From assembly GCF_001463705.1 (NCBI RefSeq), contig NZ_BBWH01000031.1, positions 62,001 to 126,000 of the forward strand: a DNA stretch of 64,000 bases, in the 5' to 3' direction. Every line of letters begins with the position of its first letter. Position 1 is the stretch's first letter. Made by a program: the position numbers and the translations under genes. The notes beneath the pieces are model-generated. The model worked only from the letters and a program-made list of their open reading frames with translations, did not search any database and was not told where the DNA came from. This DNA is from Aureimonas sp. AU12. Its GTDB lineage: Bacteria > Pseudomonadota > Alphaproteobacteria > Rhizobiales > Rhizobiaceae. Of the stretch, positions 32,943-57,871 are shown one piece after another.

Positions 32943-33539
32943 ATGAGCGACGAGAAGAACCGGCCGGCCCCCGCCGCCACCGTGCGGCGCGAGGTTCGCC
33001 GCTACCTGCATCAGCACTGGCGCGCCTTCTCGCTGCAGGGCCTCCTCATGGCGCTGGCCGGCGTCGCCGCGCTCGTTGCGCCGCTCCTCGCCACACTCGC
33101 CACCTCGATCTTCCTCGGCTGGCTGGTGCTGGCGCTCGCCGGCGCCGCCTTCATCGCCTGCTTCCGCATGCGCGGTGCCGCCGGCTTCTGGTCGAACCTC
33201 GCGCTCTCGGTCCTGCTTCTGCTGCTGGGAATCGTCATCCTCGCCGATCCCTTCGCCGGCGCCGTGACCCTCACCACGGTCCTCGCCGTCTACTTCCTCC
33301 TCACCGGCCTGACGATCCTGTCGCTCGCCCGCGCCTTCCGCACCTCCACTGGGCGCTTCTGGCTGCTGGCCCTCGCCGGCGGGCTCAACGTCGCCCTCGC
33401 CTTCTTCCTCGTCATTGGCCTGCCCGGCACCGCCTCATGGGCTGTCGGCGTCTTCCTCGGCATCTCCCTGCTGATGTCCGGCCTCAGCCTCCTCGCCGCC
33501 GCGCTCGATGCCCGCACGGGGCCGAAGCCCGGGCGCTAG
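32943..33539 (+). CDS. HdeD/DUF308 family membrane protein
   Basis: 198 residues with six closely spaced hydrophobic helices between about residues 28 and 190 and a short polar N-terminus. This is the HdeD (DUF308) pattern, linked to acid resistance in enterics. It lies 51 nt after the FMN reductase gene on the same strand and may share its transcript. A structured repeat element begins 13 nt after its stop. Confidence 0.85.
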   Translation: MSDEKNRPAPAATVRREVRRYLHQHWRAFSLQGLLMALAGVAALVAPLLATLATSIFLGWLVLALAGAAFIACFRMRGAAGFWSNLALSVLLLLLGIVILADPFAGAVTLTTVLAVYFLLTGLTILSLARAFRTSTGRFWLLALAGGLNVALAFFLVIGLPGTASWAVGVFLGISLLMSGLSLLAAALDARTGPKPGR

Positions 33540-33551
33540 CGGGCGAGGGTC

Positions 33552-33725
33552 GCATGCAGGGGCGCTGCCCCCGCACCCCTGCCAAGGGCCTGAGGCCCTT
33601 GGATCCCCATCTGTTGTTTCAGTCACCGGGAGGGCCAGCGGCCCTCCCCGGTGACTGACAGGAGAAAGCGGGGGTCCGGGGGTGTCAGCCCTCGGGCGGG
33701 GCACGGGGCGGCAGCCCCGCCATGC
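33552..33725. repeat. GC-rich structured intergenic element, copy A
   Basis: 174 bp between the convergent hdeD-like and SDR genes. It has five hairpins in order: GGGGC/GCCCC at 33559; CCAAGGGCC/GGCCCTTGG at 33582; a central 17-bp stem at 33620-33657 with conserved tip GGGCC-AGC-GGCCC; CCGGGGG/CCCTCGG at 33676; and GGGGC/GCCCC at 33705. The two ends resemble imperfect inverted repeats beginning GCATG. Copies B (40370) and C (45453) have the same plan with different, still complementary, central stems. It could act as a terminator, a structured RNA or a MITE-like element. Confidence 0.9.
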
Positions 33726-33739
33726 CACCCGCCGCCGGC

Positions 33740-34498
33740 TCAGACGTGCTGGCCGCCGTTGATGTGGATTTCGCCGCCGCTGACGTAGGAGGCCTGGTCG
33801 GAGCAGAGGAAGTAGATGATGTCGGCGACCTCGGAGGTCAGGCCGAGGCGGCGCAGGGGGATGGTTTCGACGATCTTCTCGGTGCCGGGTGAGAGGATGG
33901 CGGTGTCGATTTCGCCGGGGGCGATGGCGTTGACGCGGATGCCGTCGGGACCGAAGTCGGCGGCCATCTCACGCGTCAGGGAGGCCAGCGCCGCCTTGGA
34001 GGTGGCGTAGGCGGTGCCGGCGAAGGGATGGACGCGGCTGCCGACGATCGAGGTGACGTTGACGATCGAGCCCTTCGCGCTGGCCAGTTCGGTGTGGAGG
34101 CCGCGGGCGAGCATGATCGGGGCGAAGAAGTTCACCTGGAAGACGTCGCGCCAGACATGCATGGGGGTGCGGATGGAATCCATGCGGGCGCCCTTCTCGA
34201 CCTTCGGCGAGATGGCCGCGTTGTTGACGAGCGCGTTGAGGCGCCCGCCATTGGCCTGCAGGCGCTGGCGGATCTCGGAAACGGCGTAGCCGACGTCTTC
34301 CGGGTCGGAGAGATCGACCTTGATGTGGTCCTCTGGTCCGGCGGGCCAGGGGCAATCGGCTGCGAAATCCTGGCGCGAGCAGGTGATGACGCGCCAGCCC
34401 TCGCGCGAGAAGCGCTTGACGGTGGCGTGGCCGATGCCGCGCGAGGCACCTGTGAGAACCAGCGTCTTGCGGGCGTCTTGCGGCTCGGACAGCGACAT
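33740..34498 (-). CDS. Short-chain dehydrogenase/reductase
   Basis: 252 residues from ATG 34498 (MSLSEPQDARKTLVLTG); the open frame upstream to 34768 is not conserved-looking. Classical SDR: cofactor motif TGASRGIGHATVKR, NNAAIS, a catalytic Ser in the NVTSIVGSRVHPFAG stretch, YATSKAAL for Tyr and Lys, and INGGQHV at the C-terminus. Substrate unknown. Copy A of the structured repeat ends 14 nt after its stop. Confidence 0.93.
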   Translation of the reverse strand: MSLSEPQDARKTLVLTGASRGIGHATVKRFSREGWRVITCSRQDFAADCPWPAGPEDHIKVDLSDPEDVGYAVSEIRQRLQANGGRLNALVNNAAISPKVEKGARMDSIRTPMHVWRDVFQVNFFAPIMLARGLHTELASAKGSIVNVTSIVGSRVHPFAGTAYATSKAALASLTREMAADFGPDGIRVNAIAPGEIDTAILSPGTEKIVETIPLRRLGLTSEVADIIYFLCSDQASYVSGGEIHINGGQHV

Positions 34499-34933
34499 GG
34501 GACCTCGTGCGAAGAGCGAAAGCGGCCGGCGGCGGCCGCGGGTCGGCGCTTTGGATCGAACTCCGCCGCGCCGTCCTTCCTTTAGACCACCGGGGCGAGC
34601 CGGGGGAATATCTTTCGCCGCCCGCTCCACTTCCCGTTTCAGCCAGAGAGGGCTCATCGGACGAAGGATGCCGAGCGGGGTGCGCGCGGTCTGCAACGAT
34701 CCACCTCGAGCACGGCACGCGGTGCCGCAGGCAAACCCTGCCGTCGGCGCGGAGCGCTCTCCCGGCACACGCGAAAATCGGCTATGCGGGACGTCGATGG
34801 CCGGCGACGATCCGGTGGCGGGCGGGACGCCGAGCCCTGCCGGGTCGGTTGGACGCCATCGTCTTCCGACGCCGCAGACGTCGCCTTCTCAGCCTCCCCC
34901 GGCCGGTCGCGGCCGACGTTCGACGGATCCGGC
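34499..34933. other. 435-bp divergent intergenic region without recognised feature
   Basis: Lies between the divergently transcribed SDR and DUF1345 genes. I see no RNA gene, convincing reading frame or long inverted repeat; it presumably holds both promoters. Confidence 0.5.
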
Positions 34934-35608
34934 ATGCCTCAGTCCCTTTCTCAATCCGGACCGGTCGTCCGTGTCTGGCGGGTGCTGCGCGCACGGCCGC
35001 GCCTCCTCGCCGGGTTCGCGGTGACGATCGCAGTGGCGCTGCTTCTGCCCGCGAGCCTCGCGGCGTCGACGCGGGGGCTCGTCGGCTGGAACTGCGGCGT
35101 CCTCGTCTATCTGGCGGCCACAGCGCGCGTGATGCTCGGCGCCGATGCCGGCGACATCCGAAGCCACGCGGCGGGGCAGGACGAGGGGCGTGCCGCGATC
35201 CTCGTCATCACCAGCCTCGCCATCGCCGTCAGCTTCGGTGCCATCGCAGTCGAACTGCACGGGATGGGCGGTGCTGCGATCTCGGGCTGGCGCCTGTCGC
35301 TCGCCGGCGCCACCATTCTTCTGTCTTGGACGATGACGCAGGTCGTCATGGCCATCCACTATGCCGGCGAATATTACGGCGACCCGAAGGCCGAGGGCGG
35401 CATGGCCTTTCCCGGCGGCGACGAGGAGCCGGACTATCTCGACTTCCTCTATTTCGCCTTCACGATGGGCGCGGCGGCCCAGACCTCCGACGTGGCGGTG
35501 ACGACGCGGGGCATGCGCCGCCTCGTGCTGGCGCACACGATCCTCGCCTTCCTCTTCAACACCACGATCCTGGCGCTCGCCGTGAATGTCGGCGCGAGCG
35601 TGATCTGA
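34934..35608 (+). CDS. DUF1345 family membrane protein
   Basis: 224 residues from ATG 34934 (MPQSLSQSGPVVRVW). About five membrane helices; the segment MAIHYAGEYYGDPKAEGGMAF followed by EEPDYLDFLYFAFTMGAAAQTSDV is the DUF1345 signature. Function unknown. It is 46 nt upstream of hrpB on the same strand. Confidence 0.9.
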   Translation: MPQSLSQSGPVVRVWRVLRARPRLLAGFAVTIAVALLLPASLAASTRGLVGWNCGVLVYLAATARVMLGADAGDIRSHAAGQDEGRAAILVITSLAIAVSFGAIAVELHGMGGAAISGWRLSLAGATILLSWTMTQVVMAIHYAGEYYGDPKAEGGMAFPGGDEEPDYLDFLYFAFTMGAAAQTSDVAVTTRGMRRLVLAHTILAFLFNTTILALAVNVGASVI

Positions 35609-35654
35609 ACGCACGCTGCTGGACAGCGCGGCGCCGATCCCCGACAAGCCGGCC

Positions 35655-38189
35655 ATGACCACGCCCGCCGCCGCTCTTCCCCTCGTGCTTCCGGCGCTGC
35701 CCGTCTCGGCCGTGCTGCCGGCGGTGGCGGAGGCCCTCGGCCGCATCGGCATGGCCGTCCTCGTCGCGCCGCCGGGCGCCGGCAAGACGACGCTCACACC
35801 GCTGCATCTCCTCGGCGAGATCGCGCAGGGGCGCATCCTCCTCGTCGAGCCCCGACGCCTCGCCGCCCGCGCCGCTGCCACGCGCATGGCCTCTCTGCTC
35901 GGCGAGCGACCCGGCGAGCGCGTGGGCTGGCGCATGCGGCTCGACACGAAGGTTTCGGCCGCCACGCGCATCGAGGTCGTCACCGAGGGCGTCCTGACAC
36001 GCATGATCCTCGCCGAGCCCGATCTGCCGGGCGTCGCCGCCATCCTCTTCGACGAATTCCACGAGCGCTCGCTCGACGGCGATTTCGGGCTGGCGCTGGC
36101 GCTCGACCTTCGCGGCGCGCTGCGGCCGGACCTCAAGATCCTCGTCATGTCGGCGACGCTCGACGGCGCGCGCGTCTCGCGGCTGCTGGGCGAGGCGCCG
36201 GTGATCGAAAGCGCGGGCCGCGCCTTTCCCGTTGCCATCCGCTACCGCGACCGCCCCGGCACCGAGCCGATCGAGGACGCCGTGGCCGGCGCGGTGCTGG
36301 CCGAGATCGCGGCCGGTCCCGGCTCGATCCTCGCCTTCCTGCCGGGCCAGCGCGAGATCGAGCGCACCGCCGAGCGCCTCGCCGCCAGGCTGCCGCCCGG
36401 CACGATCCTCGCCCCACTCTACGGGCTGATGGACGCGGCCGCGCAGGATCTCGCCATTCGCCCGGCCCCGGCGGGCACGCGCAAGGTGGTGCTGGCCACC
36501 ACGATCGCGGAAACCTCGATCACCATCGACGGGGTCAGCGTCGTCGTCGATGGCGGGCTCAAGCGCCAGCCGCGCTTCGAGCCGGCCACCGGCCTGTCGC
36601 GGCTGGAGACGGTGCGGGTGTCGCGCGCCTCGGCCGACCAGCGCGCCGGCCGCGCCGGCCGAACCGCGCCGGGGATCGCCGTGCGGCTGTGGCGCGAGGC
36701 CGAGACCGGCGCGCTCGACGCCTTCGACCGGCCCGAGATCCTTTCGACCGATCTCGCCTCGCTCGTCCTCGACACGCTGGCCTGGGGCGCGCGCGATCCG
36801 GCCGAACTCGCCTTTCTCGATCCCCCGCCCGCGCCCGCCGTGGCGGAAGCGCGCGCGCTGCTCGCCGATCTCGGCGCGATCGGTCCGGACGGCCGCCTGA
36901 CCGCGATGGGCGAGACGATGCGCCGCCTGCCCGCCCCGCCGCGCCTGGCCCGCATGGTGGCCGGCGCCGCGCCGGGCGCGCCGCGCCGCACCGCCGCGCG
37001 CCTTGCCGTGCTCCTCACCGAACACGGGCTCGGCGGGTTGGACGTCGATCTCACCGAGCGCCTGCGCCGCTGGGCGAGCGAGCGCTCGCCGCGCGCCAGG
37101 ATGGCCGACGACCTCGCCGCGCGGATGGTGCGCAGCGTGCCGGCATCGAGCGACGAGCCCGGGATCGGCGACCACGACGACGCGGACCCCGGCGCGCTGC
37201 TGGCGCTCGCCTATCCCGATCGCGTCGCCCTGCCGCGCGGCGCGCGCGGCGCCTTCGTCCTGTCGAACGGGCGCGGCGGCGTCCTGGCCGAAACCGAGGC
37301 GCTGGCGCGCGAGCCCGCGCTCATCGTCGCCGACCTGCAGGGCGTCGCGCCCGGTGGGCCCTCCCGCGCCGGGGCGCCGCGCGTCGGGCGCATCCGCTCC
37401 GCCGTCGCCCTGCCGCGCGAGGCGCTGGAGCGCATTCTCGCCGCCCGCATCGTCGAGGAGGACGTCATCGTCTTCGATCCCGCGAGCCGCTCGGTGCGCG
37501 CCCGCCATGTCCGCCGCCTCGGCCACGCCATCCTTTCGGAAGCCCCGCGCCCGCTGCCCGAGGACGGGAGCGCCGTCGGCCCATTGATGGCCGGGCTTCG
37601 CGATCTCGGTCTCGGCCTCGCGCCCCTGCCGATCGACCGCGACGGCGAGCGGCTGCTCGCCCGCCTGCGCTTTGCCGCCGAGGCGCTCGGCCCCGAGGCC
37701 GGCTGGCCCGACTTCTCGGACGACGCGCTCCTGACGACGCTGGAGGACTGGCTGGCGCCCTTCGTGCCCGGCGCCGCGTCGCTGGCTTCGATCGCGCCCG
37801 GTGCGATCCGCGAGGCGCTGCTCGCCCGCCTCGACCCCGCCGAGGCCCGCCGCATCGAGGGGATCGTGCCTTCGCATTTCGATGCCCCCACCGGCCAGCG
37901 CCATCCCATCCGCTACGAGCCGCAGGGGCCGGTGCTGGCCGTGCGCGTGCAGGAACTGTTCGGGCTGAAGCGCCATCCGGCCGTCGCCGACGGGCGCCTG
38001 CCGCTCATCCTCGAACTTCTGTCGCCGGCCGGGCGCCCGATCCAGGTGACGCGCGACCTGCCGGGCTTCTGGGCCGGTTCCTGGGCCGACGTTCGCGCCG
38101 ACCTTCGCGGCCGCTATCCGCGCCATCCCTGGCCCGAGGATCCCGCGAGCGCGGCCCCCACCGCACGGGCCAAGCCGCGCGGCACCTGA
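35655..38189 (+). CDS. hrpB: ATP-dependent helicase HrpB
   Basis: 844 residues, close to the family norm. DEAH/RHA helicase: Walker A APPGAGKTTL, the DEFHERSLD form of the DExH box, MSATLDG motif III, and motif VI SADQRAGRAGRTAPG. The C-terminal HrpB-specific region ends RYPRHPWPEDP. Proposed RNA helicase of unclear role in bacteria. In-frame and uninterrupted. Confidence 0.96.
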   Translation: MTTPAAALPLVLPALPVSAVLPAVAEALGRIGMAVLVAPPGAGKTTLTPLHLLGEIAQGRILLVEPRRLAARAAATRMASLLGERPGERVGWRMRLDTKVSAATRIEVVTEGVLTRMILAEPDLPGVAAILFDEFHERSLDGDFGLALALDLRGALRPDLKILVMSATLDGARVSRLLGEAPVIESAGRAFPVAIRYRDRPGTEPIEDAVAGAVLAEIAAGPGSILAFLPGQREIERTAERLAARLPPGTILAPLYGLMDAAAQDLAIRPAPAGTRKVVLATTIAETSITIDGVSVVVDGGLKRQPRFEPATGLSRLETVRVSRASADQRAGRAGRTAPGIAVRLWREAETGALDAFDRPEILSTDLASLVLDTLAWGARDPAELAFLDPPPAPAVAEARALLADLGAIGPDGRLTAMGETMRRLPAPPRLARMVAGAAPGAPRRTAARLAVLLTEHGLGGLDVDLTERLRRWASERSPRARMADDLAARMVRSVPASSDEPGIGDHDDADPGALLALAYPDRVALPRGARGAFVLSNGRGGVLAETEALAREPALIVADLQGVAPGGPSRAGAPRVGRIRSAVALPREALERILAARIVEEDVIVFDPASRSVRARHVRRLGHAILSEAPRPLPEDGSAVGPLMAGLRDLGLGLAPLPIDRDGERLLARLRFAAEALGPEAGWPDFSDDALLTTLEDWLAPFVPGAASLASIAPGAIREALLARLDPAEARRIEGIVPSHFDAPTGQRHPIRYEPQGPVLAVRVQELFGLKRHPAVADGRLPLILELLSPAGRPIQVTRDLPGFWAGSWADVRADLRGRYPRHPWPEDPASAAPTARAKPRGT

Positions 38190-38301
38190 CGCAAGGCCAG
38201 ACCGCGCGGCACCGGACGGCCGAATTTCCATTGCAAGGGAAAGAGGTTGCGCCGACGCGTCGCATCTTGGCAGGGGTGCGCCCGCTTCTAAGTGCGGCCG
38301 C

Positions 38302-39690
38302 ATGATGAACCGATCGCACCATGCCGATTTCGAACCGGGTCCGTCTTGGTCCGGCCGCGCCTCGAACGAGGGCCAGCGCATGCGCCTGGCGACGCTGACG
38401 CGGCTGCGCTGGCTGTCGATCGCCGGGCAGACCGCGGCCTGCGTCTTCGTCGCCTGGGGCCTCTGGTATCCCTATCCGGTGTTTCTCTGCTTCGGTCTCA
38501 TCGCCCTGTCGGTGGCGCTGAACATCGTCCTCTCGCTGCGCTTTCCCAAGAGCGAGCGGCTGGAGTCGCGGCAGGTCGCCGCGATCCTCGCCTTCGACAT
38601 CCTGCAGCCGACCGGGCTCCTCTTCCTCACCGGCGGCATCCAGAACCCGTTCGCGATCTTTCTCATCGTGCCCGCGATGACCGCCGCGGCGACCCAGCCG
38701 CCGGCCACCACGATCGGCCTCGGCATCCTCGCCGTCGCGGCGTCCACCGTGCTCGCCTTCGTCCATATGCCGATGCCCTGGCCGCTCGACCTTCCCTTCG
38801 CGCTGCCGCTCCCCTACCTCGGCGGCATGTGGTTCGCGCTCGTCACCACGCTTCTGTTCTCCACCTTCTACATCTACCGCGTCGCCGCAGAGGCCCGCAC
38901 GCTTTCCGACGCGCTGGCCGCCACCGAACTCGTGCTCCAGCGCGAGCAGCATCTCTCCGCCCTCGACGGGCTCGCCGCCGCCGCCGCGCACGAACTCGGC
39001 ACCCCGCTTGCCACGATCGCCCTCGTCGCCAAGGAGATGGGCCGGTCCACTTCGACCGCGCATCCGATGCGCGAGGACGTCGATCTCCTCATTACCCAGA
39101 CCGAGCGCTGCCGCGACATCCTGCGCCAGCTCACCAGCCTCTCGTCGTCCTCAGAGGAGCATCTGGCACGCCTGTCTTTCCTGTCGCTCGTCGAGGAGGT
39201 CGTCGCCCCGCATCGCGATTTCGGCGTCACCATCCGCGTCATCGCGGCGCGGCGCGAAGGCCCCGAACCGGTGATGCGGCGCAATGCCGGCATCGTCTAC
39301 GGGCTCGGCAACATCGTCGAGAACGCCGTCGATTTTGCCGCGGGCGAAGTCACGATCTCGCTGGGATGGACGGGAGAACGCATCGACATCGAGATCGTCG
39401 ACGATGGCTCGGGCTTTCCCGCCGACGTGCTCGCCCGGATCGGCGATCCCTACATGGCCCAGCGTGAGGCGGGACCGCGCAATTCCGGCGGCGGCCTCGG
39501 CCTCGGCCTCTTCATCGCCAAGACCCTGCTCGAGCGCTCGGGCGCCCGGATCGTCTTCGGCAACCGCCCGGAGGCCGAGCGCCCCGGCGCCCTCGTCGCC
39601 ATTTCATGGCCGCGCGAGATCTTCGGGCGGCTCGCCGCCAGCGAAGACAGCGAGGAACGGGTCTCGATGTCGGCCCTCCCCTCCCTCTGA
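38302..39690 (+). CDS. actS: Redox sensor histidine kinase ActS/RegB/PrrB type
   Basis: 462 residues. Six membrane helices span about residues 35-195 and include the quinone-binding type motif GGIQNPFAIF. The H box is AAAHELGTPLATIA (His230). Cys270 in QTERCRDILRQL lies exactly 40 residues later, the same spacing as His225 and the redox-active Cys265 of Rhodobacter RegB, so redox sensing is probably retained. N box (NIVENAVDFAAG) and G boxes (DDGSGFPADV, GGGLGLGLFIAK) are present. Followed by its response regulator 87 nt later. Confidence 0.93.
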   Translation: MMNRSHHADFEPGPSWSGRASNEGQRMRLATLTRLRWLSIAGQTAACVFVAWGLWYPYPVFLCFGLIALSVALNIVLSLRFPKSERLESRQVAAILAFDILQPTGLLFLTGGIQNPFAIFLIVPAMTAAATQPPATTIGLGILAVAASTVLAFVHMPMPWPLDLPFALPLPYLGGMWFALVTTLLFSTFYIYRVAAEARTLSDALAATELVLQREQHLSALDGLAAAAAHELGTPLATIALVAKEMGRSTSTAHPMREDVDLLITQTERCRDILRQLTSLSSSSEEHLARLSFLSLVEEVVAPHRDFGVTIRVIAARREGPEPVMRRNAGIVYGLGNIVENAVDFAAGEVTISLGWTGERIDIEIVDDGSGFPADVLARIGDPYMAQREAGPRNSGGGLGLGLFIAKTLLERSGARIVFGNRPEAERPGALVAISWPREIFGRLAASEDSEERVSMSALPSL

Positions 39691-39777
39691 TCCTAAACTC
39701 TGTCCATCGGACGCGATGTCGCGCCCGTTGACTTGCGCGCGAACGGCTCCAAATCAGAACGGAAAAGGAACGAAACC

Positions 39778-40353
39778 ATGCTCATGGACGTCACCGCTTC
39801 CACCCCCGTCCCCGCCCGCCTGCCGGACGGCGACCACTCGATCCTCCTCGTCGACGACGACCGCCCGTTCGTAACGCGTCTCGGACGCGCCTTCGAGCAG
39901 CGCGGCTTCGACGTGCGCACCGCCGAGGGCGTGTCGGACGGCATCGCCGCCATCCGCGCCCAGGCCCCGGCCTATGCGGTCGTCGACATGCGGCTCGGCA
40001 CCGGCAACGGGCTCGAGATCATCGAGGCGCTGCGCCGCGCCCGCCCCGACGCCCGCGTCGTCGTCCTCACCGGCTACGGCAACATCGCCACCGCCGTCAC
40101 CGCCGTGAAACTCGGCGCCATCGATTATCTCGCCAAGCCCGCCGATGCCGACGAGGTGATCGCCGCGCTCATGCGCGAGCCCGGCACCAAGGCCGAGCCG
40201 CCCGAGAATCCGATGTCGGCCGACCGTATCCGCTGGGAGCACATCCAGCGCGTCTACGAACTCTGCGACCGCAACGTCTCCGAGACCGCGCGCCGCCTCT
40301 CCATGCACCGCCGCACCCTGCAGCGCATCCTCGCGAAGCGCGCCCCGCGCTGA
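39778..40353 (+). CDS. actR: Redox response regulator ActR/RegA/PrrA type
   Basis: 191 residues from ATG 39778, with AAGGA 8 nt upstream. Receiver domain with acidic pocket VDDD, phospho-acceptor Asp70 in VVDMRLGTGNGLE, and Lys in DYLAKPAD; then a proline-containing linker and a Fis-type helix-turn-helix NVSETARRLSMHRRTLQRIL. Global regulator of redox-responsive metabolism, partner of the adjacent ActS. Copy B of the structured repeat begins 16 nt after the stop. Confidence 0.95.
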   Translation: MLMDVTASTPVPARLPDGDHSILLVDDDRPFVTRLGRAFEQRGFDVRTAEGVSDGIAAIRAQAPAYAVVDMRLGTGNGLEIIEALRRARPDARVVVLTGYGNIATAVTAVKLGAIDYLAKPADADEVIAALMREPGTKAEPPENPMSADRIRWEHIQRVYELCDRNVSETARRLSMHRRTLQRILAKRAPR

Positions 40354-40369
40354 GGCGTGGGGCGATGCG

Positions 40370-40541
40370 ATGCAGGGGCGCTGCCCCCGCACCCCTGCCA
40401 AGGGCCTGAGGCCCTTGGAACCCCATCACTTCTGTCGATCATCGGAAAGGGCCGCCGGCCCTTTCCGATGATCGATCAAAAGAAGCGGGGGCTTCGGGGC
40501 GTCAGGCCCCGAGCGGGGAAGGGGCGGCAGCCCCGCCATGC
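40370..40541. repeat. GC-rich structured intergenic element, copy B
   Basis: 172 bp between convergent actR and mmcB. Outer parts are nearly identical to copy A, but the central hairpin (40435-40474) is a 19-bp perfect stem whose outer half (TCGATCATCGGAAA) has no similarity to copy A; the GGGCC-GCC-GGCCC tip is conserved. The fourth hairpin is TCGGGGC/GCCCCGA. It ends 1 nt before the mmcB stop codon. Confidence 0.9.
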
Positions 40542-40542
40542 G

Positions 40543-41049
40543 TCAATCCTCGTCCAACGTCGGCTCGCCCGTGAGGAACGGGTTGGCGGTCCATTCAGCC
40601 TGAAGCAGGCGATCGGAGGCGAGGCGGGCGAAGCGCAGCGTCAGCGCCTTGCGGGTGGCCGAAGGCAGCTTGTGCTCAGGCGCCTCGCGCAGGATCTCGG
40701 CGCCGTAGCCGTCCGAGAGGATGAGGCCGCAATCCTCCGGGAAGATGTCGGTGGGAACGCCGGGATGGGTCGCGAAGTAGAGGCGGTCGCAGTGGAGCCG
40801 ATAGTCGGGCCATTTGCGATCGACGCGGAAGTCCTCGATCGAGGACTTGATCTCGACGATGGTGAACTCACCCTTCTCGGACAGGCAGAGAAGATCGGCG
40901 CGCCGCCCCGAGACGAGCGGTATTTCCGGCAGGACCGACACGCGCAGACGGATCATCAACCGCTGGACGCCGCGCCGCACAAGCATGGCGCGCTCGGACT
41001 GACGGCCGTCGACGAGGGGATCGCGGCGGTTGGGCGAGACGAGAGGCAT
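40543..41049 (-). CDS. mmcB: MmcB family DNA repair protein
   Basis: 168 residues. A PD-(D/E)xK nuclease-like core is visible: SGRRADLLCLSEKGEFTIVEIKSS provides the acidic residue and ExK, followed by DFRVDRKWPDYRLHCDRLYFA. MmcB is a DNA repair factor first described in Caulobacter and is conserved in alphaproteobacteria. Convergent with actR; the structured repeat fills the whole gap. Confidence 0.9.
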   Translation of the reverse strand: MPLVSPNRRDPLVDGRQSERAMLVRRGVQRLMIRLRVSVLPEIPLVSGRRADLLCLSEKGEFTIVEIKSSIEDFRVDRKWPDYRLHCDRLYFATHPGVPTDIFPEDCGLILSDGYGAEILREAPEHKLPSATRKALTLRFARLASDRLLQAEWTANPFLTGEPTLDED

Positions 41050-41465
41050 GGCGCAAGGCGTAGACCGCGACGCGCCGGTCGATCAAGACGCCCGGCGAGC
41101 AAAACCGAAACGCCGAGTCGTTCCGCCGCATGAGAAAGGCGAACGCTTGTGGGCCGACGAGGCGAATGCGCCGCCTTGAGCGGAGCATTCGGTGCCGCGA
41201 CACGCACGGGATGGGCGGGAGCGGATGCGAATGCGATAAGCTCGTTCGCGCAAACGGAGTGACGTCGAGTTCAACTGTTCCCCAGCGAACCCGAACGACT
41301 TGCAAGGGCCGATCAGTCAGTCGGCCTTCCCCTTCCTGGAGAACGACGCGTCTCTGCAGACAGCCCGGATCGACGCGATCTGCATCGCCAGATCCAGCCT
41401 CGCTGGAAGTCCCGGCGTCGTTGCGCGTTGTAATCACACCATCCGGAGGCGGAACACGCCGCGCC
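41050..41465. other. 416-bp gap without recognised feature
   Basis: Lies upstream of mmcB and downstream of the cueR-like gene, both on the minus strand. An open frame at 40868-41437 overlaps mmcB and has no family-like sequence, so I do not call it. No clear hairpin or RNA gene seen. Confidence 0.5.
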
Positions 41466-41912
41466 TCAACGATGGCCGGCGGCTTCGCCTCCCGCCGACG
41501 CCAGCGCCGGGCTGGCTATGCGCGCGCTCTCACCGGCGATCTCGTCGAGGATCGGGCAGTCGGGCTCGCGGCCGGAATGGCATTCCTCGCTCAGCATGGC
41601 CAGCGCCCGGCGCAGGGACTGAAGCTCCTCGATCTTGTGGTCGATCTCGCCGATGCGCCGCGCCACGAGGCGCCGGCCATCGCCGCGATCGCGCGCCTCG
41701 CCGCCATAGAGCGCCAGGAGCTTGCGCGCCTCGTCGATCGAAAAACCGCCCGAGCGCGAGCGCTGCAGGAAGCGCAGGACATGCACGTCGCGCTCGCAAT
41801 AGTCGCGGTATCCGTTGGCCGCGCGGGCCGGCTGCACGAGCCCGACCTCCTCATAGTAACGGATGGTCTTCGACGGCAGGCCGGACCGTTTCGACGCTTC
41901 GCCGATATTCAT
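41466..41912 (-). CDS. MerR-family copper-responsive regulator (CueR/HmrR-like)
   Basis: 148 residues from ATG 41912 (MNIGEASKRSGLPSKTIRYYEEVGLVQP), the classic MerR helix-turn-helix start. After a long dimerisation helix come two cysteines spaced CxxxxxxxC in ECHSGREPDCPIL, the Cu(I)-binding loop spacing of CueR. It would activate copper export genes by distorting their promoter. No copper ATPase is adjacent; the neighbouring L,D-transpeptidase is divergent. Confidence 0.88.
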   Translation of the reverse strand: MNIGEASKRSGLPSKTIRYYEEVGLVQPARAANGYRDYCERDVHVLRFLQRSRSGGFSIDEARKLLALYGGEARDRGDGRRLVARRIGEIDHKIEELQSLRRALAMLSEECHSGREPDCPILDEIAGESARIASPALASAGGEAAGHR

Positions 41913-42149
41913 CCGAAGTCCCCGATTTGTCAGCATTTTCGTCCCTTGAGAGAGGAAATGCGGCAAAGCTGGGGATCGTCAACTGTGCTCGCGTTGCAAC
42001 AAGAATATCTTAACCATGGAGGGGTCTACTCGTGTCGTTGCCAGCTGAATCGCATCGGCGTACCAGAAGGACGGCCCTCCCGGGACGCCCGATCCGGGAA
42101 CCGTGCCTCGCCTGGCCGCCCAACCCTCGCAGCCTGACCCGGACGCCCC

Positions 42150-42917
42150 ATGACGACCCGCTCGACCCTCTCCCTTCTCGGCGTCTCGCTCGCCGCTCTG
42201 GCCGCCCTCGGCGGCTGCACGACCCAGCAGCGGGCGTCGATCAGCACCGACGTGCCGATGGCGCAGGCCTATGTCGCGCCGGCCCCGGTCGAGCAGATCA
42301 AGTCGGGCGGACCGCTTGGCCCGGTCGAGCTGACGGCCTACGATTCGATCGAGGACGGCGGCTTCAAGCTGCCGGCCATCCCGATCTCGAAGGTTTCCGA
42401 AGAGTTCCGCCGCCAGCGCGTCGTCTACAATGGCGAGGGTCTCGAGCCCGGCACCGTGGTGGTCGATACGAAGAACCATTTCCTCTACGTCGTGGAGCCG
42501 CAGGGCACCGCGATGCGCTACGGCATCGGCGTCGGCAAGGCCGGCTTCTCGTGGTCCGGCCAAGCTGAGATCAAGGACAAGCAGCACTGGCCGAAGTGGT
42601 TTCCGCCGGTCGAGATGATCGCGCGCAGGCCCGAGCTCAAGCCCTATGGCAACGAGGTCGGCATGAATCCCGGCCTGCAGAACCCGCTCGGCGCCCGCGC
42701 CCTCTACCTCTATCAGGGCAACAAGGACACGCTGTTCCGCCTGCACGGCACGCCGGAATGGTGGTCGATCGGCAAGTCGGTCTCGTCGGGCTGCATCCGC
42801 CTGATGAACCAGGACATCGTCGACCTCTACGACCGCGTTCCGATGAACGCGAGCGTCATCGTGCTTCAGGGCAAGGAGACGCTGGAATCGCGTCGCCGCA
42901 CCGCGCCGCAGAGCTGA
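42150..42917 (+). CDS. L,D-transpeptidase (YkuD) lipoprotein
   Basis: 255 residues. The N-terminus has a hydrophobic stretch ending AALGGCTT, a lipobox with the acylated Cys22. The catalytic YkuD motif [20 protein letters not shown] carries the His and Cys. It makes 3-3 peptidoglycan cross-links or anchors outer-membrane proteins to peptidoglycan in the periplasm. A TTAACCAT octamer (42010-42017), a CtrA half-site-like sequence, lies upstream. A terminator follows. Confidence 0.94.
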
Positions 42918-42955
42918 TCGAGCTCCCACACGAGTTAAAGGCGGGGGACCGCCAT

Positions 42956-42990
42956 GGCCGGACGCTTCGGGGGAAGCGTCCGGCCTTTTT
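42956..42990 (+). terminator. Terminator after the L,D-transpeptidase gene
   Basis: 12-bp stem GGCCGGACGCTT/AAGCGTCCGGCC with a C-G-rich loop, followed by TTTTT. Confidence 0.9.
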
Positions 42991-43216
42991 GTTTGCGAGC
43001 GGACCGGGGATCCATGTTCTCGGACGGCAACTGGTGGGCTGGGCGTCCCCCACCCCTTCGATCGGGCCCGGGCTTGATCGGACGTCGAGGACGCATCCCT
43101 CCCTCCCTTGCATCTTCACACGCGCCGTCTTCGAAAACCGCGCGGCGTCATCGGAGCGGTGCTATAGGGACGGCGCATTCCGTCGTCCCTTCGTCCCAGC
43201 ATTCGAGCCCCGCCCC

Positions 43217-44197
43217 ATGGATCCAGACTTCCTGCGCGCCCAGGCGCATCGCGTCCTGCCGGCCGCCGTCCTTCCCGAACTGCCGGGCTTCTACAGCGGC
43301 AAGGTGCGCGAGAACTACGACCTAGCCGACGGGCGCCGCGTCATCATCGCCACCGACCGGCTCAGCGCCTTCGACCGGATCCTCTGCGCCGTGCCCTTCA
43401 AGGGGCAGGTGCTGACGCAGACCGCGCGCTTCTGGTTCGAGGCGACCTCCGACATCTGCCGCAACCATGTCCTCGACACGCCCGACCCGAACGTCGTGAT
43501 CGGCCAGCGCCTCGACATCCTGCCGGTCGAGATCGTGGTGCGTGGCCATCTCGCGGGCACCACCGGCACCTCGATCCTGACCCTCTACAAGAGCGGCCAG
43601 CGCGACATGTACGGCGTCCACATGCCGGACGGCCTGCGCGACAACGAGCGTCTGCCGCAGCCGATCATCACACCCACCTCGAAGGCTTTCGACGGCGGTC
43701 ACGACGAGCCGCTGACGCCGGCCGAGATCCTCGAGCGCGGCCTCCTCACGCCCGCGCAATGGGACGAGGTCAGCGCCCATGCGCTGGCCCTCTTCGCACG
43801 CGGCCAGGCGATGGCCGCCGATCGCGGCCTCATCCTCGCCGACACGAAATACGAGTTCGGCACCGATCCGGCCGGGCGCATCGTGCTGGCCGACGAGATC
43901 CACACGCCCGATTCCAGCCGATACTGGAAGGCCGCGAGCTTCGAGGAGCGCTTCGAGGCGGGCGAGCGCCCCGACAGCTTCGACAAGGATTTCGTGCGCT
44001 CCTGGGTCGCGGCGCGCTGCGACCCGTACCAGGACGAGATCCCGGAGATTCCGGAGGACATGATCCTCGACACCGCGCTCGTCTATGTCGAAGCCTTCGA
44101 GACGATCACCGGGCGGTTCTTCGAGCCCGATCTCTCCGGCGACAGCGTGCTGGAGCGCATCCACACGCGCCTCGCCCCGCTCTTCGGCGGCCGCTGA
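43217..44197 (+). CDS. purC: Phosphoribosylaminoimidazole-succinocarboxamide synthase
   Basis: 326 residues from ATG 43217 ([15 protein letters not shown]). SAICAR synthase joins aspartate to CAIR in purine synthesis. Visible segments are the [12 protein letters not shown]-binding start, [26 protein letters not shown], and [11 protein letters not shown] with the [12 protein letters not shown] motif. It is the longer form of the enzyme (about 300 residues or more). Stands alone; a hairpin repeat lies after the stop. Confidence 0.96.
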
Positions 44198-44230
44198 GGG
44201 GTCCAGAGCATTTCCAGCGGACAACGCGGC

Positions 44231-44284
44231 TCACAAAGACCTAGAGCCGATCCTGTGACCCCTTGTTCGCCGGATCGGCTCTAG
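44231..44284 (-). repeat. Short hairpin repeat, copy 2 (terminator-like)
   Basis: 13-bp perfect stem (44241-44253 with 44272-44284, CTAGAGCCGATCC) and 18-nt loop, flanked by ACAAAGACCTAG as in copy 1 at 7739. Two stem positions differ from copy 1 and both changes are compensated in the other arm. The stop codon of the ceramidase-like gene (44281-44283) is in the stem. It is downstream of both purC (+) and the minus-strand gene, so it may terminate both. Confidence 0.7.
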
Positions 44285-44937
44285 GCGCGTCGGGGCGCAT
44301 GGATCGCCCCCACGAGAAGGATCCCGAGCACGGTCGCGTTCAGCACGTGCCAGAGAAAATGCAGCCCGAGCGGCACCGCGGCACAAAGTGGGCTGTCGAG
44401 TGTGCGCAACGTCAGCGACACCGCGAAGACCCCGCCCGCGCCGAGAAGCGCTCGCGCCGCCGGATGGCCTCGCGCGGTCAGCAGCGTACCCAGGCCGAAC
44501 AGCGCCGCCAGCGCCGGAATATAGGCGGCCGAGGAGCCCATCCACGGCTCCGCCAGCGGTGCCAGCGCCTGACCGCCAAGCGCGAAAGCCAGCGTGCCGA
44601 GCGCGCTCGCGCCCCGGCCGAGTTCGACGAACCGCCGCAGCGCCAGCGCGAAATAGCCGTAGATGAAGATCGCGATTGGGATCACGTCGGCAAGCACCGA
44701 CCACTGGTCGGCAAAGGTGTGGAACAGGAACGAGCCGATGCCGATCACCGCGACGAGCGCGATCAGCGCTAACGTCGCGCGGTCGCCGCCCTCGATCTTG
44801 GCCCGCCGCCGCCAGAGGCGAAAGGCCAGCGCCGCCGCGACGAGGAAGGCCACGTTCGACAGCGCGTTGACGGGTTCGGCCCAGAAGGCCCCGCTCGTGC
44901 GCTCGCAATAGGCGTCGATCGGCGCGAACCAGTCCAT
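44281..44937 (-). CDS. Alkaline ceramidase-family membrane protein
   Basis: 218 residues with seven or so membrane helices. Motifs of the CREST/alkaline ceramidase family are visible: AFWAEPVNALSNVAF early, GIGSFLFHTFADQW in the middle and GLHFLWHVLNA near the end; their Glu, Ser, Asp and His residues form the zinc hydrolase site. It would cleave the amide bond of ceramide-like lipids, but bacterial substrates are poorly known. Its stop codon lies in a hairpin repeat. Confidence 0.85.
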   Translation of the reverse strand: MDWFAPIDAYCERTSGAFWAEPVNALSNVAFLVAAALAFRLWRRRAKIEGGDRATLALIALVAVIGIGSFLFHTFADQWSVLADVIPIAIFIYGYFALALRRFVELGRGASALGTLAFALGGQALAPLAEPWMGSSAAYIPALAALFGLGTLLTARGHPAARALLGAGGVFAVSLTLRTLDSPLCAAVPLGLHFLWHVLNATVLGILLVGAIHAPRRA

Positions 44938-44979
44938 GGCCTGCCCTTCCCGCTTCCCCGATCGCAGTGCCCGCCGGCC

Positions 44980-45435
44980 TCAGCCGCCGCCCGACGCCAG
45001 ACCCAGCGTCGTCAGCGTCACGAAGAGATAGCGCAGGCCCTTGCCCGTGCCGACCAGCAGCAGGAACGGCACCACCCGCACGCCCAGCAGCCCCGCGATC
45101 ACCGTCAGCGCGTCGCCCACCACCGGCACCCAGGCGAACAGGAGCGAGGGCAGCCCGAAGCGCTCGAACCAGCCGCTCGCCCGCGCGATCCGTCGCTCGG
45201 GCACCGGAAACCACTTGGCCTCGCGGTAGGCCGCCAGAAATCGCCCGCAACCCCAGTTGAACAGCCCGCCCAACGTGTTGCCGAGCGTCGCCGCCAAGGT
45301 CAACAGCCACGGGCTTCCCGTGCCCGCCAGAAGCAGGCCCACCAGCACTGCCTCCGACGATGCCGGAATGAGCGTCGCCGCCAGAAACGCCGCCGCGAAC
45401 AACCCGCCATACGCCGCCAGAAGCTCGACGGTCAC
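44980..45435 (-). CDS. YqaA/DedA-like membrane protein
   Basis: 151 residues from GTG 45435 (VTVELLAAYGGLF). The frame continues to 45510 into the adjacent repeat element, so the longer form would be an annotation artefact. Segments PASSEAVLVGLL, ATLGNTLGGLFNWGCGRF and FAWVPVVGDALTVIAGLLG match YqaA, a small VTT/DedA-type family. Probably involved in membrane transport or homeostasis. Same strand as the ceramidase-like gene, 42 nt upstream. Confidence 0.85.
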   Translation of the reverse strand: MTVELLAAYGGLFAAAFLAATLIPASSEAVLVGLLLAGTGSPWLLTLAATLGNTLGGLFNWGCGRFLAAYREAKWFPVPERRIARASGWFERFGLPSLLFAWVPVVGDALTVIAGLLGVRVVPFLLLVGTGKGLRYLFVTLTTLGLASGGG

Positions 45436-45452
45436 GGAGCGCGGCGCGTGGC

Positions 45453-45623
45453 AAGCAGGGGCGCTGCCCCCGCACCCCCGCCAAGGGACTTGAAGCCCCT
45501 TGGAACCCACTCTCTGGTTTCCCTCGATGGGGTGGGCCGTTGGCCCGCCCCATCGAGGGACAAAAGAAAAGAAGGGTCCGGGAATTCATTCCCGGGCGGG
45601 GACCGGGGCGGCAGCCCCGCCAT
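45453..45623. repeat. GC-rich structured intergenic element, copy C
   Basis: 171 bp between the yqaA start and the glcB stop, both minus-strand genes. Same plan as copies A and B. The central hairpin (45520-45560) is a 19-bp stem with one G-U pair; its outer half (CCCTCGATGGGGT) is unrelated to those of A and B, and the GGGCC-GTT-GGCCC tip is conserved. The fourth hairpin is CCGGGAAT/ATTCCCGG. It ends 8 nt from the glcB stop and begins 17 nt before the yqaA start codon, so unlike A and B it may influence a 5' leader. Confidence 0.9.
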
Positions 45624-45631
45624 CGCGCGCC

Positions 45632-47827
45632 TCACGCCCGGCGGCCGGCGGCCTTCTTCTCGCGGCGGCGGCGGTGAAGGACGGGTTCGGTGTAGCCGTT
45701 GGGCTGGATGCGGCCCTCGAGCACGAGCTCGAGGGCCGCCTGGAAGGCGACGGACTCGTCGAAATGGCCGGCCATCGGCTCGTAGAGCGGGTCGCCGGCG
45801 TTCTGCCCATCGACGACGGCGGCCATGCGCCGGAGGGTCTCGACGACCTGCGCCTCGGTGACGACGCCGTGGAGAAGCCAGTTGGCGATGTGCTGGGAGG
45901 AGATGCGCAAGGTGGCGCGGTCTTCCATCAGGCCGACATTGTTGATGTCGGGCACCTTCGAGCAGCCCACGCCTTGGTCGACCCAGCGCACGACGTAGCC
46001 GAGGATGCCTTGGGCGTTGTTGTCGAGCTCGGCCTGGATGTCCTCGGGTGTCCAGTTCGGGCGCACCGAGACGGGGATGGTGAGGATCTCGGAGAGCTTC
46101 GTGCGCGAGCCGCCGGCGAGCTCGGTCTGGCGCTGAGCGACGGAGACCTCGTGATAGTGGGTGGCGTGGAGGGTGGCGGCGGTCGGCGAGGGCACCCAGG
46201 CGGTGTTGGCTCCGGCGCGCGGGTGGGCGATCTTCTGCTCGAGCATGGCGTGCATGAGGTCGGGCATGGCCCACATGCCCTTGCCGATCTGGGCGTGGCC
46301 CTTGAGGCCGCAGGCAAGGCCGACGTCGACGTTGCGATCCTCGTAGGCCTTGATCCAGGGGGCGGCCTTCATGTCGCCCTTGCGGATCATCGGGCCGAGT
46401 TCGATCGAGGTGTGCATCTCGTCGCCGGTGCGGTCGAGGAAGCCGGTGTTGATGAAGACGACGCGGTTCTTGGCGCGGCGGATGGCCTCCTTGAGGTTCA
46501 CCGTGGTGCGGCGTTCCTCGTCCATGATGCCCATCTTGATCGTGTTGGGCTTGAGGCCGAGAGCGCTCTCGACACGGGCGAAGATCTCGTCGGCGAATTC
46601 GACCTCGTCGGGCCCGTGCATCTTGGGCTTGACGATGTAGACCGAGCCGGCGCGCGAGTTGCGGGGCCCCTGCTGCTTCTTCAGGTCGTGAAGGGCGACG
46701 AGCGTGGTGATGGCGGCGTCGAGCATGCCCTCGGGCGCCTCCGACCCGTCGCGCAGGAGCACGGCCGGGTTGGTCATCAGGTGCCCGACATTGCGGATGA
46801 GCATGAGCGAGCGGCCGGGCAGGGTCAGCGCGGAGCCGTCGGGCGCGGTGTAGTCGCGATCGGGGCTCAGGCGACGGGTGACGGTCTCGCCGCCCTTCTG
46901 GAAGCTCTCGACGAGGTCGCCCTTCATCAGGCCGAGCCAGTTGCGATAGACGGCGACCTTGTCCTCGGCATCGACGGCGGCGACCGAATCCTCGCAATCC
47001 TGGATCGTGGTGACCGCGCTTTCCAGGATCACGTCGGAAAGGCCGGCGGGATCGGTGGAGCCGATCGGCGAGGTCGGGTCGATGACGATCTCGCCGTGCA
47101 GGCCGTTCGTGGCGAAGAGGATCGAGGTCGGGGCGCCCGGCTCGCCGCGATAGCCCGCGAACTGCGAGGGCTCGGCCAGCGGCACGAGGCGACCGTCGTG
47201 CAGCGTCGTCATCAGCCGTGCCTTCTCCACCGCGAAGCCTTCCGCCTCGCGCCAGGAGGCGCCGTTCAGCGGCACGGAGCGGTCGAGGAAGTCGCGCGCC
47301 CAGCCGACGACCTTCTCGCCGCGCACCGGGTTGTAGCCGCGGCCGCGCTCGGCGCCGCCTTCTTCCGAGATGGCGTCGGTGCCGTAGAGCGCATCGTAGA
47401 GCGAGCCCCAGCGGGCGTTGGCGGCGTTGAGCGCGAAGCGGGCGTTGAGGACGGGCACGACGAGCTGCGGCCCGGCAATGCCGGCGATCTCGGCATCGAC
47501 ATCGGCGGTCTCGACCGAGAAGGCGCCGCCCTCGGGCACGAGATAGCCGATCTCGCGCAGGAAGGCCTCGTATTCCACGCCGTCCACCGTGCCGCCGCGC
47601 CGGTCGCGGCACCAGGCGTCGATCTTCGACTGGAGGTCGTCGCGGATGGCGAGAAGCTCGCGGTTGCGGGGCGCGAGATCGTGGAGGAGCCCCGAGAGAT
47701 CACGCCAGAAGGCGTCGGCCTCGATGCCGGTTCCCGGCAGCGCCTCGGTCTCGACGAACTGCTTCAGGCGATCATCGACCTTCAGGCCATGAAGTTCGGT
47801 GCGGCTTTCATCGGCGGCGGCGGACAT
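45632..47827 (-). CDS. glcB: Malate synthase G
   Basis: 731 residues from ATG 47827 ([17 protein letters not shown]), the normal length for the monomeric G isoform. It condenses glyoxylate with acetyl-CoA in the glyoxylate cycle or glycolate use. The active-site region includes [21 protein letters not shown] and [19 protein letters not shown], with [20 protein letters not shown] and [14 protein letters not shown]. No isocitrate lyase gene is nearby. Confidence 0.98.
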
Positions 47828-57346: not shown

Positions 57347-57871
57347 GGCTCGTGCCCCTCACGCTGGAGCTGCGGATCAAAGGGCTCGCGCCACAAGGCC
57401 CGCCTCCGTCTCCGCCCTTCTCGTCATCCTGGGCTCGATCCGGGATGACGAAGCTGAAGAGCGGCGGTCTCATCCGAAACGGCAGTGAGCACAAGCCCGT
57501 TCGCAGATCCTCCAAGGCGCCTGCCGCGCACCGTAGGCGTCGTAGAAACCGTGGGCATCGCGATCCTTCGGGCCGAAGGCGTCGCAAATACCGGTTGGCT
57601 TCGGAAGAAGAGAACTCGACTGAGTTCCAGCCCCATCCCCCACCTCTCTCGTCATCCCGGGCTTGACCCGGGATCCATGCCGAGACCTCGCCGGAGACGA
57701 TCGCAGTTGTATCCGGCGCCTCATGCGCGAGACGAGCCCGCCGCCGCCCGGGCATGGATCCCGGGTCAAGCCCGGGATGACGAGGTGGAAAAGTGCTGGA
57801 TGCTTTCGGAAGGGCCTGGCTCCCATCCTGGACCACGCGTGGTCCAGCGAGCCGGTGGCGCATGGCAGGCA
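57347..57871. repeat. 525-bp non-coding repeat region inside the opp operon
   Basis: Contains a 34-bp perfect inverted repeat (57648-57681 and 57751-57784, core CATCCCGGGCTTGACCCGGG) separated by 69 bp, and a diverged third copy at about 57421-57451 (GTCATCCTGGGCTCGATCC then GGGATGACGA). Each unit is itself palindromic. I recall similar palindromes being dispersed in many Hyphomicrobiales genomes. No gene is seen here. Confidence 0.85.

Follow-up and report, generated by a model that had tools for sequence, protein, structure and literature searches.

How can a hairpin be rewritten from copy to copy and still pair with itself? The question is raised by an intergenic element that occurs three times in the window, the 64,000-nucleotide (nt) stretch of contig NZ_BBWH01000031.1 analysed here, which belongs to the draft genome of Aureimonas sp. 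AU12 (4.67 Mb, 92 contigs). A sequence-only reading had described three structured copies with a fixed order of five hairpins, H1–H5, and a central stem that differs among the copies and is complementary in each. The re-mapped ends of the copies (Table 1) lie within 2 nt of those first given, the order of H1–H5 is identical in all three, and every H3 has the tip GGGCC-NNN-GGCCC and the outer arms originally quoted. Across the genus, what is kept in the hairpins, foremost in a central stem of 19 base pairs (bp) and its 3-nt loop, is structure rather than sequence. The family largely stayed put at its sites as species diverged, and between the most closely related species both arms of the stem have often been rewritten with the flanks hardly altered. 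We consider it probable, at roughly 0.6, that these palindromic repeats are ancient and for the most part fixed, and that recombination, template switching or both exchange their hairpins as units and also invert the elements.

Central stems keep pairing while their sequence changes

The sequence-only reading had proposed a covariance-model search of the genome and its relatives. Together with a search with copy 1, this gave 19 copies in AU12, of which 11 lie on the plus strand of their contigs and 8 on the minus strand, and a model built from those 19 detected the element in 14 of the 21 genomes of the genus Aureimonas; G002, with one 28-nt BLAST match and no covariance-model match, was counted as a non-carrier. 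Up to 134 candidates per genome were scored, yielding at least 262 strand-matches in the 14 genomes, or at least 131 places. The analysis below concerns 124 copies, 19 from AU12 and 105 from the other carriers; the listed match G001:C282 was left out, and the element at G010:C2:318921 was read from stretch L105.

The elements are intergenic, about 165–190 bp long, and in canonical order comprise H1 (of the GGGGCGCTGCCCC type), H2 (of the CCAAGGGCCTGAGGCCCTTGG type), a pyrimidine-rich link, H3, a purine-rich link, H4 and H5 (GGGGCGGCAGCCCC). In other species the same hairpins have different sequences, for example CCAGGGGAAATGATTTCCCCTGG in H2 and CTCGGGAATTCCTTCCCGAG in H4. The covariation first noted in H4 of the window copies holds: each of the three has an H4 of different sequence that pairs with itself, copy 1 including one G-T pair. 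When the copies were folded and compared with 200 shuffles each, z was −7.9, −9.3 and −7.4 for copies 1, 2 and 3, and no shuffle equalled any of them. The minimum-energy RNA fold of each window copy is a single long hairpin uniting both halves, not five hairpins, because the left and right halves of the element are complementary to each other in addition to the self-complementarity of each hairpin; the five-hairpin architecture is adopted because each hairpin is self-complementary in sequences that differ across copies.

The pairing of H3 is nearly complete. In 114 of the 124 copies, the set used for arm swaps and segment identities, H3 is a gapless stem of 19 bp or more closed by a 3-nt loop; pair types were counted in the 117 copies with a stem of at least 17 bp and a 3-nt loop. 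Over the inner 19 pairs of these 117 copies, 2136 of 2219 pairs are Watson-Crick, 40 are G-T, 29 are A-C and 14 are of other types; 59 copies are perfect. The five loop-proximal pairs are nearly constant. Among pairs 6–18, the Watson-Crick types number three or four at 12 of 13 positions and two at pair 9. Across these positions a copy's own arms form 12.5 of 13 pairs (96% Watson-Crick), compared with 6.0 after an arm is swapped with that of a copy with a different stem; 0.9% of swaps reach 12 pairs, and slid registers are 22–37% paired. The constant stem length and loop size, set against the free sequence, suggest selection on geometry.

These values, and stems that outpace their flanks (below), bear out the proposal that structure is maintained under changing sequence, and the central stems of AU12 and of the genus are complementary, so that the non-complementary stems named in the sequence-only reading as a refutation did not appear. 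The description of the outer stem as unrelated between copies goes somewhat too far, since a loose consensus TC..TCATCGGGGA is discernible within AU12; the genus set nevertheless contains 97 distinct outer 13-mers in 114 copies.

Sites persist as stems turn over

Comparison of flanks placed the 124 copies at 36 sites. Of these, 28 are occupied in at least two genomes and the widest, site 1, in 13 of the 14 carriers; because sites 33 and 34 of genome G018 are recombinants of sites 6 and 10, the total is two above the number of ancestral places. All 15 analysed copies of Aureimonas pseudogalii lie at sites occupied in AU12. It is this sharing of sites by several species that indicates long persistence. 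One missing copy was examined between close species, and it left no precise empty site: at site 8 of G009 (L326) an internal deletion of 106 nt has removed H3 and H4, and precise excision there was rejected on that ground. The copy at site 8 of G007 (L174) is damaged and has lost half of its central stem. Starting from copy L005, a single flank was found in A. pseudogalii, which is uninformative on an empty site. In 20 syntenic regions around the window copies the covariance model found an element three times, twice in A. pseudogalii and once in G020; the 15 other regions with both neighbours of copy 1 have 18–147 nt between the matched parts and are too diverged for a footprint.

With genes called by a simple finder based on codon usage, 100 of the 124 copies have the stop codon of an adjacent gene within 30 nt, and 11 have a start codon. 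Judged by the majority of copies, 28 of the 36 sites are stop-proximal, and the eight exceptions include site 1, which is divergent. The sites comprise 11 convergent, 19 tandem, 4 divergent and 2 undecided contexts; 8 of the 53 gene pairs in the window are convergent. This location makes a role at transcript 3′ ends plausible. For the terminator family, one of the interpretations offered by the sequence-only reading, a scan for intrinsic terminators found nothing at copy 1; copy 2 gave a single weak match (shuffles 0.2, standard deviation 0.5) and copy 3 a single match (shuffles 0.4, standard deviation 0.6), neither clearly above shuffles. The hairpin matched in copy 3 is H4 of the minus strand, which has the reading direction of malate synthase G.

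Stems at a common site of different species resemble each other no more than stems from different sites of one genome do. Stem identity is 0.54 among orthologs and 0.56 among other sites of the same genome; the links give 0.60 and 0.68–0.71, respectively, and H1–H2 0.74 in both comparisons. Whole-element identity is 0.736 for orthologs, 0.753 for copies of the same genome and 0.681 for different sites of different genomes. In 20 pairs with flanks at least 92% identical, stem identity is at most 0.69 in 13 and from 0.77 to 1.00 in 7. H1–H2 is still at least 0.92 identical in 6 of the 13 strongly changed pairs, and both ends are so in 4. Between G009 and G015, site 5 has flanks of 94.3%, H1–H2 of 0.98 and a stem of 0.62, and site 1 has flanks of 92.2%, H1–H2 of 0.96 and a stem of 0.46. 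At site 1 and at site 4 (flanks 94.5%), 7 of 19 left-arm positions have changed, and all 7 changes are compensated. At site 3 (flanks 94.9%) the whole element is only 0.62 identical. In such pairs stems differ by about a third or more against 5–8% for the flanks, a contrast that separate, slowly compensating mutations can hardly account for, and the data support the conclusion that something beyond base-by-base drift acts on the stems.

Identical stems recur at different sites. The stem TGACAACAAAAAGG occupies four sites of G018 (2, 7, 33 and 34) and, one base longer, site 4; in most other genomes sites 2 and 4 carry other subtypes. Another single stem is present at three sites of G016. On account of these recurrences, and of the differences between species in the stem at one site, the locus-barcoded RNA that the sequence-only reading had offered as one interpretation is not supported and was rejected. 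Its suggestion of a hairpin-replicating mobile element fares unevenly: one stem at four G018 sites speaks for it, and the fact that sites are mostly common to species speaks against it, as does the Y1 transposase family (PF01797), which was found in none of the 21 genus genomes by a search confined to that transposase class and positive in 5 of 14 controls. On the same result, mobilisation by RAYT transposases was rejected.

The two recombinant sites of G018 offer a view of exchange on a larger scale. Sites 6 and 10 lie 8–9 kb apart on one contig in G003, G007, G009 and G015. In G018 two copies 9 kb apart, L145 and L146, carry the same stem and have the flanks of these sites joined crosswise, the outer flanks collinear and the inner ones inverted. 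The arrangement, present in one draft assembly, is the expected product of recombination between two copies and suggests such an event.

Elements are turned round in place

Orientation at a site also varies. The same orientation was found in 178 of 316 orthologous pairs and the opposite one in 138 of 316, the pairs not being independent; across the five sister pairs of the species tree, which was built from four proteins of one region and has some weakly supported nodes, 15 of 37 common sites are opposite. Across the 28 sites, parsimony requires 27 flips or more; shuffled labels give a mean of 29.0, and 94 of 500 shuffles are as low. The observed number is near the shuffled one, and orientation therefore carries little or no phylogenetic signal. 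Among flipped pairs with flanks of at least 88%, 25 of 27 have alignments that end no more than 25 nt from the element on either side (39 of 47 in unflipped pairs). At site 2, G009 and G015 have the same element in inverted form, with flanks of 96.1%, an element identity of 0.91 and a stem that differs by one base. Most of the genus genomes are drafts.

A proposed mechanism and its alternatives

In the history that we favour, a genus-level, non-autonomous palindromic family would have come to occupy about three dozen intergenic sites, mostly just 3′ of stop codons. Ectopic recombination or gene conversion may then have exchanged central patches among copies, and one arm may have been re-copied from the other by a template switch at the hairpin; either step would preserve the complementarity of the arms at a single stroke. 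Recombination or template switching between the inverted ends would turn the whole element round in place. Selection on hairpin geometry in both directions would purge broken copies, the selected feature being perhaps the 3′ end of the transcript on each side or a DNA cruciform. Hairpin exchange with arm re-copying would explain the complementarity, the similarity within genomes, the retention of ends in some cases and the inversion in place.

Several observations weigh against this history. Conversion alone should lower diversity, and that of the outer 13-mers is high. Copies L005 and L009 of AU12 have an identical stem, including a shared G-G mismatch, so copying alone does not rewrite a stem. 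H1–H2 is also altered in 7 of the 13 strongly changed pairs, which fits whole-element replacement as well. Donor copies were not found for most rewritten stems, and the part given to template switching is one that we infer. Exact words common to both ends of one copy have a median of 6 nt and a maximum of 14 nt, leaving little homology for recombination between ends. Site 3, which is widely shared and lies between tandem genes (L020, L114 and eight further copies), is oriented alike in all 10 of its genomes. Of the 61 copies in tandem contexts overall, 41 share the strand of their genes and 20 have the opposite one, a possible strand preference that stems partly from site 3.

Of the alternatives, a site-specific mobile element, excised and inserted repeatedly at the same targets in either orientation by some transposase or recombinase, accommodates the same sites with changing occupants and orientations, the weak inverted repeats that alignment reveals at element ends, the spread within G018 and the change of the whole element in some close pairs, such as site 3 of G009 and G015. 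We nevertheless judge it unlikely: close species present an internal deletion at G009 site 8 rather than a precise empty site, 6 of the 13 close pairs with strongly changed stems retain the locus-specific H1–H2, and the one transposase class searched for, Y1, is lacking in all 21 genomes. A MITE-like non-autonomous element would have short dispersed copies with terminal inverted repeats; the copies here are dispersed, and the exact inverted words between their approximate ends have a median of 6 nt. Elements of about 170 bp are too short for an encoded transposase.

Classical compensatory evolution of a transcribed RNA, in which single mutations are followed by second ones that restore the pair, would require no special DNA process and is favoured by the strong covariation, by the stem of at least 19 bp in most copies and by the location at gene 3′ ends. 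It too seems improbable, since stem change outruns the flanks, as in the fully compensated changes at sites 1 and 4 of G009 and G015, and since the flips are left unexplained. One transcribed strand should, moreover, favour G-U pairs over A-C. The G-T count (40) is not much above that of A-C (29), and the pairing is therefore not obviously tuned to one transcribed strand.

A dedicated palindrome-rewriting process is a doubtful proposition of similar standing. At fixed genomic sites it would replace the outer 13 bp of the 19-bp stem on both arms in one event and invert the element, so that only geometry is inherited; if true, bacteria would possess a system that diversifies structured DNA without breaking it, and faster than ordinary mutation.

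A regulated switch turned by a site-specific invertase, as in phase variation, would account for inversion in place with flanks collinear up to the element ends and is very improbable given the mostly 3′-end location, the lack of a promoter-like site near the three window copies and the stem rewriting that it leaves unexplained. Assembly errors at repeats, which the many draft genomes and an orientation barely better on the tree than shuffles (as random errors would give) might suggest, are scarcely credible as the source of the changes in orientation and occupant, because the longest exact word between two copies of one genome is 30–108 nt (medians 17–33) and that between ends at most 14 nt, so ordinary reads should span the differences, because site 3 is constant in orientation, and because stem complementarity is independent of assembly.

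The window copies and related sequences

Copies 1 and 2 lie in convergent gaps, copy 1 between genes for a DUF308 protein (ending at 33539) and an SDR oxidoreductase (ending at 33740) and copy 2 between a response-regulator gene (ending at 40353) and an mmcB-like gene (ending at 40543). Copy 3 is immediately 3′ of the malate synthase G gene, which is on the minus strand and ends at 45632; all assignments are by Pfam. The A. pseudogalii (G010) ortholog of copy 1 has the same orientation and near-identical outer hairpins, with the central stem rewritten with compensation. The copy 2 gap of A. pseudogalii holds no element by covariance model, and that of G020 holds one in the opposite orientation. 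The ortholog of copy 3 in A. pseudogalii is inverted in place.

Table 1. Positions of the element copies, their hairpins and related features (window coordinates unless a stretch is named).
Feature	Position	Strand	Basis or score
Copy 1, canonical orientation	33554..33723	+	covariance model, 172.8 bits
H1 of copy 1, GGGGCGCTGCCCC	33559..33571	+	sequence, alignment
H2 of copy 1, CCAAGGGCCTGAGGCCCTTGG	33582..33602	+	sequence
H3 (central hairpin) of copy 1, left arm 1 base short	33619..33658	+	sequence
H4 of copy 1	33676..33696	+	sequence
H5 of copy 1	33704..33719	+	sequence
Copy 2	40370..40539	+	covariance model, 176.4 bits
H3 of copy 2, 19 perfect pairs, loop GCC	40435..40475	+	sequence
Copy 3	45453..45623	+	covariance model, 168.8 bits
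H3 of copy 3, 19 bp including one G-T pair, loop GTT	45520..45560	+	sequence
Five-hairpin look-alike with the same H2 26-mer, on a contig filed as a Desulfovibrionaceae metagenome-assembled genome	L277:2046-2202		51.5 bits
Carriers of the exchangeable module	L009, L013, L015, L017; G012_L196; G020_L205		

Beyond the genus, BLAST with copy 2 found the element in none of 20 relatives. At an E value of 1e-5 copy 2 matched none of 72,556 plasmid records and none of 50,697 phage records, a result on which dissemination by plasmids or phages was rejected. An existing Rfam family, which the sequence-only reading had allowed for, was not found among 4227 families at gathering cut-off in the window. 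The best match below the cut-off around copy 1, 31.1 of 197 bits to a microRNA model, was taken with the other weak matches there as chance. A literature search covering few subscription journals found no publication naming this Aureimonas family.

The exact 26-mer of H2 also occurs in Roseomonas, Pararoseomonas and a few other records and, among the matches listed, is abundant in the first two with different partners. Of at least 80 such loci, 40 were checked: the look-alike on the Desulfovibrionaceae contig scored highest, two A. pseudogalii loci apart, and the others gave 28–41 bits. Nine of ten loci inspected by eye are different, mostly shorter elements, the exception being the same contig.

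End hairpins are variable in composition. An alternative left module, GGGCGAGCCACSGGTCTCGCCCGTCC..ACGGACGG, replaces H1 and part of H2 in 4 of the 19 AU12 copies. In several genomes an exchangeable module, GGGCGAGCCACSGGTCTCGCCC with GTCC..GGAC (or its reverse complement), substitutes for or inserts into end hairpins. The window holds a further inverted repeat at 57648–57784, starting CTCGTCATCCCGGGCTTGACCCGGGATCC, whose 47-nt arms are 87% complementary.

As to distribution along the chromosome, the dnaA-bearing contig of A. pseudogalii (C2, 391 kb) holds 8 of its 15 analysed copies, a clustering near the replication origin. In G012, whose main contig C1 starts at dnaA, all 8 analysed copies lie within about 1.25 Mb of dnaA (P of about 0.04). 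The 185-kb contig of the window (C31) holds 7 of the 19 AU12 copies.

Comparison with known repeat families

A repeat family can, on this evidence, be conserved by site and structure without conserved sequence or orientation, and purely sequence-based surveys could give a wrong picture of how old and how mobile such repeats are. The enterobacterial ERIC/IRU (127 bp) and YPAL/RU-2 (about 168 bp) elements are likewise lineage-restricted, dispersed and intergenic and can form long stem-loops (PMC2229807); the accessible part of that source does not mention in-place inversion at common sites. The Aureimonas family, compared with them by description rather than by sequence, is distinguished by its five-hairpin plan with a sequence-free central stem.

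Aureimonas belongs to the order Hyphomicrobiales, the same order as Rhizobium and Sinorhizobium. The RIME, Sm and ABC repeats of the latter two are likewise structured intergenic repeats of unknown function present in dozens (PMC2573895). Copy 2 had no match in the plasmid records, in which the presence of RIME was unchecked.

Gene conversion was reportedly proposed for REPs in the title of a 1988 review. REP, BIME and REPIN sequences are also intergenic palindromes 3′ of genes, in unidirectional and convergent gaps (PMC3733652 and PMC3116915). The REPs of REPIN/RAYT systems are short and bear a GTAG or CGTC tag (PMC3733652). At 20–40 bp and with RAYT transposases, REPs differ from the longer Aureimonas elements, whose genomes gave no Y1 transposase. 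The pneumococcal BOX, RUP and SPRITE repeats are likewise dispersed and over-represented between convergent genes (PMC3049150); inversion, gene conversion and words beginning in compensat- are absent from the main text of that paper.

In-place inversion of dispersed elements at fixed loci has a counterpart in the insertion sequences (IS) of Wolbachia, which invert by recombination between terminal inverted repeats; there, 9% of IS loci are reported as inverted (PMC3004938), compared with the 138 of 316 orthologous pairs that are opposite in Aureimonas.

How stem pairing is kept despite sequence change is an old question, to which one-step template switching has been proposed as an answer from RNA genes (PMC8794818). 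The family offers a natural test bed for palindrome maintenance, with 124 copies at 36 sites in 14 genomes, many of them orthologous. Since stems are rewritten and elements flipped between species with flanks 92–96% identical, rate and mechanism could be measured in culture. According to PMC8604942 and PMC8794818, template switching homogenises the arms of inverted repeats and inverts spacers, and it predicts both one-step compensatory change and in-place inversion. Those sources describe the process for RNA genes and yeast coding genes (PMC8794818, PMC8604942), whereas in Aureimonas we infer it for dispersed repeats.

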